Source of the DNA: a virus
Direction: 5' to 3' (one strand)
Length of the DNA: 29,631 nucleotides
IMG/VR virus record: IMGVR_UViG_3300009605_000088
Span: 1-29,631 of that record
This document shows positions 24,813-29,631 of this stretch, in pieces (the first letter of the stretch is position 1; each line of letters starts with the position of its first letter). The position numbers were made by a program, and so were the translations under genes. The notes under the pieces were generated by a model. It had not been told where the DNA came from, ran no database searches, and worked only from the letters and a program-made list of their open reading frames with translations.

Positions 24813-26012
24813 TTGTATTTTCAAACGCTGGATAGCAAAAACGAGTGCATAGGGTATTACGCAAATAAGGAGCTTCATTATCAAGAGCTACCGTTAGATG
24901 CCGACAAGACGTGGGACTATTCTCCCTCCTTAAAAGATAGGCACGTAGAGTATGCCCGTATTTACAGCGGAGGCAAGACGCTCGCCGAAGTATGTCCCGA
25001 AGATCTTAAGCCAACGTGGGACAAGATTATAAAACAGCTTCATGCGTTCCTTAAGTCTTTCAAGACAGGTAAGATTAACCTCGATGAGATTTGTATTTAC
25101 AATCTGATCCCAGAGTTCTTTCTTTATGAGCTATGTGATGCTAAGAATGAGATTACAAAACACATTCTAAAGAGTTATGGGCGCCCCATCAATCATGATT
25201 TTATGGTGGATGTCATAAGGATGCTCTCAGATATTAAACAGCAGCCTTTGAATATAGATATTGATCCGATCAAGACAAAGCTCGTGTCCGTAAAAGGCAA
25301 AAACTTTCACAGGAAGCTCCAAAGGATTAGTCGCGTGTGCAGCTACAATCCGTTCGGCAGCATAACAGGCAGGCTTACAACAAAGCCCGGGACGTTTCCC
25401 ATTTTAACGATGAGCAAAGAATATCGCGGCTGCCTCCATCCGCAAAACGATTGGTTCTTGGAGCTGGATTACAACGCCGCAGAACTGCGTACACTTATTG
25501 CGCTTACAGGACAGGAGCAGCCCACGGGAGATATCCACGATTGGAACCTCAAGAATATATATCACGGGACTGGCACCAGAGATACGGCTAAGAAGAGGAT
25601 CTTTGCGTGGCTGTATAATCCCAAATCAGAAGACGACCTTTCAAATCGCGCTTACGATAAAGAACTAGTGAAAAATAAATATTGGGACGGATCGAATGTT
25701 CATACCGAATTCGGAAGAACAATAAAAGGGGTTGACAATCACCATGCCTTAAGTTATACTATACAAAGTACGACGAGTGATTTGGTTTTGGCGAAAGCAG
25801 TTGAGATCCACGATCGCCTAAGAGAGAAGGAAAGTAATATAGCTTTTATGATGCATGATTCAATCGTTATAGATTTGAAGCACGACGAGAGGGAACTAAT
25901 TCCAGAACTCATGAAGATTTTTGGTACCACCTCTTTCGGCGACTACAAGGTGAACGTAGCTCTTGGTAAAAACTTCGGAGACATGAAGGATTTAAATATC
26001 AATGGCGCGTAA
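24813..26012 (+). CDS. Compact family-A DNA polymerase-like protein
   Basis: Likely DNA polymerase related to the Pol I palm and fingers; 399 residues, well below a full Klenow-type enzyme. TTG start with AGGAGG at 24803-24808. After an unfamiliar N-terminal ~160 residues come SITGRLTT and PILTM (the T-x-R-L-S/T region). Motif A is LELDYNAAELRTLIAL (D219, E224, R226). Motif B is RDTAKKRIFAWLYNP (R256, K260, F264, Y268; the usual Gly after Tyr is Asn). A Q-rich helix IQSTTSDLVLAKA follows. Motif C is MMHDSIVID (H348, D349; Ser replaces the usual Glu). There is no 3'-5' exonuclease domain and little room for a thumb. Its stop overlaps the next gene by 11 bp. Whether it replicates the genome or does repair is open. 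Confidence 0.8.
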   Translation: MYFQTLDSKNECIGYYANKELHYQELPLDADKTWDYSPSLKDRHVEYARIYSGGKTLAEVCPEDLKPTWDKIIKQLHAFLKSFKTGKINLDEICIYNLIPEFFLYELCDAKNEITKHILKSYGRPINHDFMVDVIRMLSDIKQQPLNIDIDPIKTKLVSVKGKNFHRKLQRISRVCSYNPFGSITGRLTTKPGTFPILTMSKEYRGCLHPQNDWFLELDYNAAELRTLIALTGQEQPTGDIHDWNLKNIYHGTGTRDTAKKRIFAWLYNPKSEDDLSNRAYDKELVKNKYWDGSNVHTEFGRTIKGVDNHHALSYTIQSTTSDLVLAKAVEIHDRLREKESNIAFMMHDSIVIDLKHDERELIPELMKIFGTTSFGDYKVNVALGKNFGDMKDLNINGA

Positions 26013-27201: not shown

Positions 27202-27987
27202 ATGGGTATTAACTTAGATAAGATGAGAGCTAAGCTCGCCACTCTCAAAGGACAAGGCGGCGACAGGGACAACTTTTGGCGTCCCGAAGACGGGACTCAG
27301 GCAATTCGCATTGTCCCCACTCCCGATGGAGACCCCTTCAAGGAGAAGTGGTTTCACTATAACCTGGGAAACACGCCGGGATTTTTATGTCCCAAGCGCA
27401 ACTATAACGACGAGTGTTCGGTCTGCGAATTCGCCTCGAAGCTTTGGCGCGACGGCGTAGACAAGAACGATGATGAGAGTAAGAAGCTGGCTAAGAGTTT
27501 CTTCGTGCGTCCTCGTTTCTTTTCGCCCGTACTTGTACGTGGGGAAGAAGACAAGGGTGTACGTATTTGGGGCTATGGTAAGATGGCCTACGAGAACCTT
27601 CTCAGCCTCGTGCTTAACCCGGAATATGGTGATATTACCGATCCAGAGACAGGTACGGACCTTACGATGACCTACGGGAAGCCTCCCGGCGCTTCGTTTC
27701 CACAGACGAAGCTCGTGCCTCGTCGTCGAAGCTCTGAGTTGTGTGAGGACATGACAGCAGAAAGTTGTGCCGAGTTGCTGGAGAGCATTCCAGAGTTCGA
27801 TACGCTGTTCGAGCGCAAAACATCAGAAGATGTTACGGCGCTTCTAGATACCTTTATGAACTCGGGTGTAGAGGACCCCGAGGCGGTTTCGTCCGAGACC
27901 CAAAAGTTTGGTGGGACGACTTCTACGACCACCGACGAAGAGCCTAATGCGGTAGATGCTGCATTCGCTGAGCTGGGCGCTCTCTAG
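27202..27987 (+). CDS. Single-stranded DNA-binding protein (gp32-like)
   Basis: Coats ssDNA during replication and recombination. 261 residues; T4 gp32 is 301. The N-terminal segment is basic (DKMRAKLATLKG), as in the gp32 cooperativity domain. An OB-like core begins with FWRPEDGTQAIRIVPTP. A zinc site fits H52, C63, C72 and C75 (H-x10-C-x8-C-x2-C), close to the T4 spacing. FFVRPRFFSPVLVRG and VRIWGYGKMAYENLL continue the core. The C-terminus is acidic with Thr/Ser linkers (TTSTTTDEEPNAVDAAFAEL), like the partner-binding tail of gp32. AAAGGA precedes the ATG. It has its own 34-bp leader. Confidence 0.9.
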   Translation: MGINLDKMRAKLATLKGQGGDRDNFWRPEDGTQAIRIVPTPDGDPFKEKWFHYNLGNTPGFLCPKRNYNDECSVCEFASKLWRDGVDKNDDESKKLAKSFFVRPRFFSPVLVRGEEDKGVRIWGYGKMAYENLLSLVLNPEYGDITDPETGTDLTMTYGKPPGASFPQTKLVPRRRSSELCEDMTAESCAELLESIPEFDTLFERKTSEDVTALLDTFMNSGVEDPEAVSSETQKFGGTTSTTTDEEPNAVDAAFAELGAL

Positions 27988-28054: not shown

Positions 28055-28597
28055 ATGAGCGGAAAACATTTATCCAAGCGTGCCAACTGGCAGGCCGGCG
28101 CCAGGGTAACTGGCGACAAGGGTGAGAAAACCTTCCTCAAGAAGCTAAGGAAGGCTCTTCCCAAGCACTACGAAATAAGATCACAGCCGATTTTAGAAGT
28201 CATTAAGAACAAGAGAATAAGACTGGATGGTGTTGTTACAAATACGAAAACCGGTAAAAGTATTTTTATCGAATGCAAGACCGGAACACAAGGGGGCAAT
28301 GCGCATGAAAGAGTTTATAAGTTTGGTCTCCAAAAGTTAAAGAGGGCCGTTAGAAAGAAATATAATACTGCAGATGAGCCTTTCTTCTTGGTGTTTGCTG
28401 GAAGAACTTTTTTTGGTAAGCCTTTTTATATTGAAAGAAAAAACAAGAAGACAGGCAAAAAGACACGCACTCTCGTAGATCCTGGCAAATATCAAGCGGA
28501 AATGAAGGTTCTTCTAGAGAGAAAGAACTATGCAATCATGAAGCCTCGCTATGAAAACATTGCCGAGGTAGCTAAAAGGATTATGGAGCGAATATGA
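28055..28597 (+). CDS. PD-(D/E)XK endonuclease, restriction-enzyme-like
   Basis: Probable sequence-specific endonuclease, 180 residues. I start at ATG 28055 (with AAGGGA just upstream); an upstream extension to 27956 would run into the gp32-like gene and adds low-complexity residues. The catalytic core is RLDGVV (D58) then FIECKTG (E73, K75). It is followed by QGGNAHERVYKFGLQKLK, a segment I associate with EcoRI/MunI-type phage and bacterial restriction enzymes. E24 in DKGEKTF may be the first-helix acid. The rest is very basic. Its last 4 bp overlap the start of an adenine methyltransferase, the typical arrangement of a restriction-modification pair. Recognition sequence unknown. Confidence 0.7.
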   Translation: MSGKHLSKRANWQAGARVTGDKGEKTFLKKLRKALPKHYEIRSQPILEVIKNKRIRLDGVVTNTKTGKSIFIECKTGTQGGNAHERVYKFGLQKLKRAVRKKYNTADEPFFLVFAGRTFFGKPFYIERKNKKTGKKTRTLVDPGKYQAEMKVLLERKNYAIMKPRYENIAEVAKRIMERI

Positions 28598-29538
28598 AAC
28601 CTTTATTTATGTGGGCTGGTGGCAAAACTCGTCTTATTAAAAAGTATAAAGAGCGAGACGTTCTTCCGCGCACGATTGAACACTACGTCGAGCCTTTTAT
28701 GGGCGGCGGCGCTATGTTTGTTTGGGCTTACAATCGAAATAAAAATGCAACCTTTATTCTTAATGACTACAACAAGTATATTATGAGTATTTATAGAACC
28801 ATTCGGGGCGACTGTAATAACTTTTTAGCGAAGATGGACGACCTCGGGTCGCAATATCTGCCGCTCAATAATAAGAATGAAGTCTCCTACTGCCGCCTCT
28901 CGAAGCCCAACAAAGAATGTACAGGCGGAGAAAGAAAAAAGTTTTATTATAATCTTTTAGATGAATATATTCACAACCACAAACAATGGGGCGCCACCGA
29001 GGAAGACGCGGTGCTTTATTTTCTTTTAAAGACCGGCTTTAATGGGATTTGGCAGACTACCAAGGAGTCTGGAGACCGTTATGCTACTCCATCTGGCCTC
29101 TTAAATCACGACAAGAAGGTGTATGACAAAAATAACGTGCTTGAATGGCAAAAGGCTTTAAAAAACACTACGTTACTGGCTGGTGATTTTGGGAAAGTGT
29201 TGCCATATGTTAAGGAAAACTCATATGTTTTCCTTGATCCTCCGTACCGAGGGTCGTTTACCCAGTATGGGGTAGACTTTGATGATGTGTGGCAAGAACG
29301 AGTGATTAAATTTTTAAATGACTCGACAAAACTGGGTGCTTATGCTATGCTATCTAATAGAGTGGTTGAAGACGAAGAAGATGACTTCTTTGAAAGCCGC
29401 CGAGGAAAGAATGAGATACTCTACTTCGATGTTACATATACAGCCGGCCGTCGCAAGCAGGCAGGCGTCGACGAAGAGGGCAACACAATATTCGAAGCCA
29501 AGAAGGCGCGAGAAATACTAATGATTGGGAGAAACTAG
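28594..29538 (+). CDS. DNA adenine methyltransferase (Dam/DpnM, D12 class)
   Basis: Methylates adenine N6 using S-adenosylmethionine. 314 residues, near the family norm of ~270-300. It starts MKPLFMWAGGKTRLI, the conserved W-A-G-G-K opening. The SAM-binding motif VEPFMGGGAMF has G37-G39; the N-D-Y-N-K segment follows at ~57-61. The catalytic D-P-P-Y is at 215-218 in VFLDPPYRGSF. TGFNGIWQTT is typical of this class. The C-terminal part after ~255 is charged and slightly longer than Dam. It overlaps the endonuclease stop by 4 bp (ATGA). It probably protects phage DNA from the partner enzyme or from host restriction. Many phages carry lone Dam genes, so the link to the endonuclease is an inference. 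Confidence 0.92.
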   Translation: MKPLFMWAGGKTRLIKKYKERDVLPRTIEHYVEPFMGGGAMFVWAYNRNKNATFILNDYNKYIMSIYRTIRGDCNNFLAKMDDLGSQYLPLNNKNEVSYCRLSKPNKECTGGERKKFYYNLLDEYIHNHKQWGATEEDAVLYFLLKTGFNGIWQTTKESGDRYATPSGLLNHDKKVYDKNNVLEWQKALKNTTLLAGDFGKVLPYVKENSYVFLDPPYRGSFTQYGVDFDDVWQERVIKFLNDSTKLGAYAMLSNRVVEDEEDDFFESRRGKNEILYFDVTYTAGRRKQAGVDEEGNTIFEAKKAREILMIGRN

Positions 29539-29631
29539 TGGCAAAATCAAAATCGAAGGTAGGGACAGTATCCGTTGGAGATTTAAGATCCCTCATTAAC
29601 AAGGCTTCCGGAATGGAAGTCGCGTACAACC
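29538..29631 (+). CDS. Start of a possible RecA/UvsX-type recombinase, cut by right edge
   Basis: GTG 29538 shares its first base with the last base of the methyltransferase stop. The visible 31 residues begin with a Lys/Ser-rich stretch and read VGDLRSLINKASGMEVAYN before the window ends. This resembles the N-terminal helix of RecA-like recombinases of large myoviruses, ahead of the Walker A region, which is not included. A gp32-like gene nearby fits a recombination role. The assignment is a guess from a short N-terminus. Confidence 0.4.
   Translation, partial: MAKSKSKVGTVSVGDLRSLINKASGMEVAYN

Follow-up and report, generated by a model that had tools for sequence, protein, structure and literature searches.

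The stretch of DNA analysed here (the window) is a 29,631-nucleotide (29.6-kb) IMG/VR record, IMGVR_UViG_3300009605_000088, of a T4-like marine myovirus, and near its end it carries two overlapping genes that probably form a phage-encoded type II restriction-modification (R-M) unit aimed at AATT. Open reading frame (ORF) E (28055..28597, + strand, ATG..TGA) encodes a MunI-like PD-(D/E)XK endonuclease of 180 amino acids with D58, E73 and K75 as its catalytic residues. ORF M (28594..29538, + strand, ATG..TAG) encodes a D12/alpha-class adenine-N6 methyltransferase of 314 amino acids with a DPPY motif. The stop codon of E overlaps the start codon of M in the 4-bp ATGA at 28594..28597 (+). The segment GGNAHERVYK corresponds to residues 80-89 of E, and GGNAHER (residues 80-86) is the predicted AATT reader. 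An initial annotation of the window had described an endonuclease-methyltransferase pair with this 4-bp overlap and this segment, and its coordinates and families agreed with ours. The pair sits between two conserved neighbours, a gp32-like single-strand DNA-binding protein (SSB) upstream (27202..27987, +) and the start of a UvsX/RecA-like recombinase gene downstream (29538..29631, +).

E resembled MunI both in sequence profile and in predicted fold. A profile of 29 E homologues gave a single credible PDB match, MunI (E-value 5e-10), in an alignment spanning an N-terminal LSxRxNWQ segment, the D/E/K residues and then GNAHER. The AlphaFold2 model of E (pLDDT 86) likewise had MunI 1d02 as its best match (Foldseek 2.6e-6), with Z 12.6 and a root-mean-square deviation of 2.2 Å over 134 residues; the runner-up, BstEII, reached Z 9.8. 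With 27 of the 29 E relatives matching Pfam MunI (PF11407) at E-values up to 0.1 (best 2.8e-7), E is, as judged from sequence and fold, a MunI homologue, one not filed as a PF11407 member. A tblastn search of E directly against cultured phages matched nothing, and PADLOC and NCBIfam scans of E returned weak or generic matches only. Invariant in the 29 diverse homologues were D58, E73, K75, GGNA, E85 and R86; in the alignment D58, E73, K75, G81, N82, A83, E85 and R86 correspond to MunI 83, 98, 100, 116, 117, 118, 120 and 121. MunI R115, reportedly (1999 MunI structure paper) the sole reader of the outer C:G pair of CAATTG, faces a gap in E, and the residue before is the invariant Gly80. The motif following the E-x-K strand is NAHER or NATEER throughout group E, with an invariant core. 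In EcoRI, residues N141, A142 and R145 of such an NAxER-type motif contact AT pairs (PMC4081073). E is also under strong purifying selection, the ratio of nonsynonymous to synonymous substitution rates (dN/dS) being 0.03-0.13 among the window and the related loci L002 and L003, with dS partly near saturation. The catalytic residues and a known restriction-endonuclease fold are present in the modelled protein, and sequence-specific cleavage is predicted.

M matched Pfam MethyltransfD12 (PF02086) at 1.2e-26 (94.4 bits, cut-off 22) and NCBIfam dam at 137 bits (cut-off 114.85), and its catalytic DPPY was invariant among the aligned M relatives. Of the residues with which the E. coli Dam methylase (EcoDam) reads GATC, K9 is responsible for the first G, L122/P134 for the third pair and R124 for the fourth (PMC10073500). 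The EcoDam sequence that served as reference for these positions agrees with the corresponding PDB stretches. Among 65 aligned M relatives, R124 was replaced by Gln in all, K9 by Met or Ile and L122 by Ile or Val, and P134 was retained; in M itself the equivalents of K9 and R124 are Met6 and Gln154. In an alignment with cellular methylases, Lys and Arg were kept in 78 of 82 rows, EcoDam included, and the Met/Gln combination was seen only in the window and in L217. With Gln in place of Arg124, the enzyme would be expected to prefer A:T at the outer position, and hence AATT. M is predicted to be a respecified Dam-family methylase.

Nuclease and methylase were closely associated. When IMG/VR was searched from the E side, M lay directly downstream, overlapping or adjacent, in 47 of 47 E loci, so that the co-occurrence check proposed with the initial annotation came out in its favour. 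From the M side, an E homologue stood directly upstream in 36 of the 80 contigs with close M relatives. At other loci the same position is taken by a group B (EcoRI-like) or a group C nuclease; in the search from the B side, M was found inside the 2.5-kb flank at most of 80 loci and was absent there in 18 rows, in at least one of which (G007, from L180) it lies elsewhere in the contig. About 30 M relatives in IMG/VR had no recognisable E, B or C nuclease alongside. Since the final 18 codons of E remain before M in L014 and L016, and an E fragment in L073, some of these partnerless methylases are secondary losses. In L185 the two activities are encoded as an in-frame fusion, for which an assembly error is possible; a functional fused R-M protein, Eco29kI, is on record (PMC3039593). 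At the 80 nearest bacterial or archaeal methylase loci, no NAxER nuclease was found within ~3 kb. The MunI fold and profile, the strict co-occurrence, the overlap, the fusion and the purifying selection together give good support to the EcoRI/MunI-type R-M unit that had been proposed initially.

The methylase was more constant than its partner. The group B profile matched EcoRI (1.8e-7) and its motif is GNA[IV]ER, with NA[IVC]ER present in 87 of 88 group B proteins. Group C carries NA[CV][EQ]R, mostly NACER; a sequence search of the PDB gave no match for it, so it was placed by its predicted structure, for which EcoRI was the sole match below an E-value of 0.001. A profile comparison (hhalign) linked group C to group B at 97.5%, but E to B at 26% and E to C at 3% probability, so E is connected to the other two only through MunI/EcoRI and the motif. 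All three partner types thus keep NAxER. Replacement was evident between otherwise similar loci: L020 (with E) and L049 (with B) encode M proteins 98.0% identical in amino acids and share 97.8% of the 895 nucleotides upstream, yet show no similarity in the nuclease region. The window and L006 were 96-97% identical in nucleotides across SSB, M and UvsX, with E proteins of 45% amino acid identity, and L007 and L009 have group C in place of E. A tree of 114 methylases required 26 changes of partner state. Judged from these loci, a single methylase apparently serves both MunI-like and EcoRI-like nucleases, and if it does protect against both, its site would have to lie within the AATT that they share.

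Further arrangements were seen around M and group B. A second D12 methylase, different from M (LRYPGGK type), occupies the nuclease place directly upstream of M in L063 (558-1364), L068, L069, L072 and L076, and such a second methylase lies downstream of M in L017 and L024. In L201 (2474-3516) the methylase that a group B EcoRI-like nuclease overlaps by 4 bp looks like an enzyme of MT-A70 type (DPPW) and takes the place of the D12 methylase. Group B may therefore pair with another methylase class too. A 245-residue ORF without a Pfam match in L026 (4262-4999) ends just before M and has a possible PD-(D/E)XK signature (KADFW..SVKM); it is possibly another nuclease type lacking the NAxER motif.

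Word counts in the genomes pointed to the same tetranucleotide. AATT occurs 91 times in the window, at an observed/expected (o/e) ratio of 0.65, and is the most depleted of the 256 tetranucleotides. In carriers of the pair from the window lineage, the ratio was 0.50 (bootstrap 0.42-0.57). The ten closest relatives by UvsX that lack the pair (86-96% identical in UvsX) had 0.94 (0.81-1.03), and when all 256 words were scanned blind, AATT differed most between the two sets (z -9.4; next -3.8). The depletion was visible within single genes encoding near-identical proteins, at 0.12 versus 0.57 in uvsX and 0.46 versus 1.01 in SSB, where the expectation came from synonymous-codon shuffling. It was present in all ten NAATTN flanking contexts; within the window lineage, AAATTC (0.29) was more strongly depleted than either CAATTG (0.67) or GAATTC (0.65). 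By group, AATT stood at 0.93 with no system, 0.85 with M alone and 0.72 with E and M (outside the window lineage). Cyanophages with group B had ratios of 0.27, 0.26 and 0.74, versus 0.84-0.96 in eight without it (Mann-Whitney p 0.006), and AATT again led the scan of 256 words (z -17.9; next -7.0). These eight controls have no B nuclease and at most weak matches to M, and three of them are recorded on Synechococcus WH7803, the host listed for S-RIM2 and S-BM1 as well; S-PM2, S-CAM1 and S-RIM8, with this same recorded host, were not depleted in AATT. S-RIM2 and S-BM1 were counted as one case, related genomes being non-independent.

The window itself contains 137 GATC, 4 GAATTC and 4 CAATTG. The initial annotation was right that these sites are present (GATC at 358 and 1243, for example), but its statement that they had not been removed needs amending: AATT, which forms the centre of the latter two, has for the most part been purged from this lineage. 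GATC was rejected as a target because of the residues of M and the lack of specific GATC depletion in window-lineage carriers, and six-base targets are disfavoured by a depletion that covers all NAATTN contexts. The targets first suggested (GATC, GAATTC and CAATTG) are thus probably wrong, and the evidence points to AATT. Apart from this, S-RIM8 (W09) had a GATC ratio of 0.19, and CCGG was almost absent in most cyanomyoviruses examined.

We consider it probable that E and M form a type II R-M unit directed at AATT. This target is proposed because NAxER is kept while the counterpart of MunI R115 is missing, because M has lost R124 and mostly K9, and because AATT is the top-depleted word; a target shared by nuclease and methylase is suggested by the agreement of nuclease swaps, residue changes and depletion. 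In the phage's own genome, M would methylate an adenine within AATT. The small MunI-fold enzyme E would, like MunI, work as a dimer and would cut unmethylated AATT in other DNA of the infected cell, be it the host chromosome, competing phages or both. Such an attack on host or rival DNA during infection is plausible by comparison with other systems, and so is the lytic life cycle assumed in the initial annotation. More tentatively, and as a proposal that we would not rank above even chances, the constant AATT methylase might be a shared immunity tag, upstream of which any AATT-reading nuclease of the EcoRI/MunI superfamily could be plugged in, with an arms race over the nuclease and with AATT purging as the trace of long exposure. 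That the nuclease is exchanged often while the target stays the same suggests that such a race would concern the nuclease itself, for example through inhibitors from hosts or rival phages.

Several observations weigh against the AATT unit. E fell just below the gathering cut-off of PF11407 (E-value 4.6e-5, 23.7 bits, cut-off 25). The methylases of S-CREM2 and L192 have Lys at the K9 position together with Gln at the R124 position, so the K9 change has exceptions. The depletion has them too: four carriers (G020, G022, G019 and G021) showed little of it (0.87-0.95), and relatedness by descent leaves few independent cases. Finally, a protected genome that purges its own site calls for an extra explanatory step; possible reasons are DNA left transiently unmethylated while the genome replicates, or attack from relatives.

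A six-base unit, reading CAATTG with E and GAATTC with group B under an AATT-specific or relaxed methylase covering both, would fit the nearest enzymes of E (MunI) and B (EcoRI), but it is unlikely given the missing counterpart of R115, the reported outer-pair reader of MunI, and the spread of depletion over all NAATTN contexts, with CAATTG and GAATTC less affected than AAATTC in the window lineage. Alternatively, M could be a self-protection enzyme against host AATT restriction enzymes, its neighbour being a nuclease of homing or junction/flap type that is there by coincidence. The partnerless M relatives and the free-standing endonucleases common in T4-like phages would suit this, as would a RusA-like PHROG match of E, which is weak (E-value 0.16). 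We regard it as quite improbable, however, as the fold and motif resemble those of restriction enzymes, no E locus of the 47 lacks M, the B and C replacements retain NAxER, L185 carries a fusion, the three WH7803 phages without the system are not depleted, and depletion is weaker with M alone than with E and M. The structure-specific nuclease that had been named initially as the refuting alternative appears unsupported: family and fold matches gave only the weak RusA-like hit in its favour, and the best fold match is a restriction endonuclease. That M retains Dam specificity (GATC) beside a nuclease of unrelated target is very improbable: M does score above the NCBIfam cut-off as a Dam-family enzyme, but R124 is an invariant Gln, K9 is mostly Met/Ile and GATC is not specifically depleted in window-lineage carriers.

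The window also encodes a gp23-type major capsid protein, tail sheath and tail tube; in this otherwise T4-like gene set, the ORF of a family A DNA polymerase (24813-26012) has only 399 amino acids. The UvsX-like recombinase of the lineage is complete in the overlapping contig L001 (2018-3127) and is ~31% identical to its best cultured-phage match, which places the lineage far from any isolate. The EcoRI-like (group B) version is carried by the cultured Synechococcus phages S-RIM2, S-BM1 and S-CREM2. In S-CREM2 the group B nuclease lies ~0.9 kb from an M-like methylase, and gp11 is annotated 'restriction endonuclease EcoRI'; a search of the S-CREM2 paper (PMC10665884) for EcoRI and restriction turned up no mention of the gene. 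In S-BM1 and the listed S-RIM2 records the gene is labelled 'hypothetical protein', so that dozens of sequenced S-RIM2 isolates carry a nuclease under this label. A ParB-like gene of ~1.05 kb (named from its appearance) lies between nuclease and methylase in L131 (1334-2389) and L083 (S-RIM2, 1949-2992); most of the S-RIM2 isolates have it, as do many IMG/VR contigs, but S-BM1 and a few of the isolates lack it. With the system present in phages that are in culture, the ways in which they might destroy host DNA or shut out rivals can be tested directly in Synechococcus. Other gains are small nucleases predicted to cut AATT, a Dam-family methylase whose respecification is predicted residue by residue, and a natural experiment in how whole genomes avoid a site.

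A search of the open-access literature found no paper on AATT-directed R-M units in T4-like phages or on the exchange of their nucleases, a weak negative as subscription papers were mostly outside the search, and nothing directly relevant on marine-virus AATT methylomes, MluCI methylases or cyanophage-encoded R-M. The parts of the system are of known kinds. With R.MunI (C^AATTG; PF11407, 1d02), E shares the fold, the D..E.K active site, GNAHER and the N-terminal LSxRxNWQ segment, but it has a shorter loop between active site and motif, no R115 counterpart and ~22% identity, and its system differs in being phage-encoded with a D12-class methylase. R.EcoRI/RsrI (G^AATTC), to which the swap partners B and C are most closely related, has the NAxER motif in common; most of the phage enzymes fall 65-110 amino acids short of EcoRI in length and have a short loop ahead of the motif, and the depletion data suggest a 4-bp target. 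With the AATT enzymes MluCI and Tsp509I the unit shares its predicted target; a possible mosaicism of EcoRI, MunI and MluCI has been suggested (PMC4081073). M shares with E. coli Dam/DpnM (D12 alpha-class, GATC) the family, DPPY, WxGGK and the third-pair equivalents of L122/P134, and departs from Dam in the outer G:C readers, R124 being Gln and K9 mostly Met/Ile. Complete virus-encoded type II R-M is documented in chloroviruses, where a role in host DNA degradation is proposed, and in marseilleviruses, where the proposed role is rival-virus exclusion (PMC7253447). Those offensive units belong to viruses of eukaryotic hosts, the marseilleviruses targeting GATC, whereas the unit described here recurs in T4-like bacteriophages, with AATT as its predicted target and with exchangeable nucleases.
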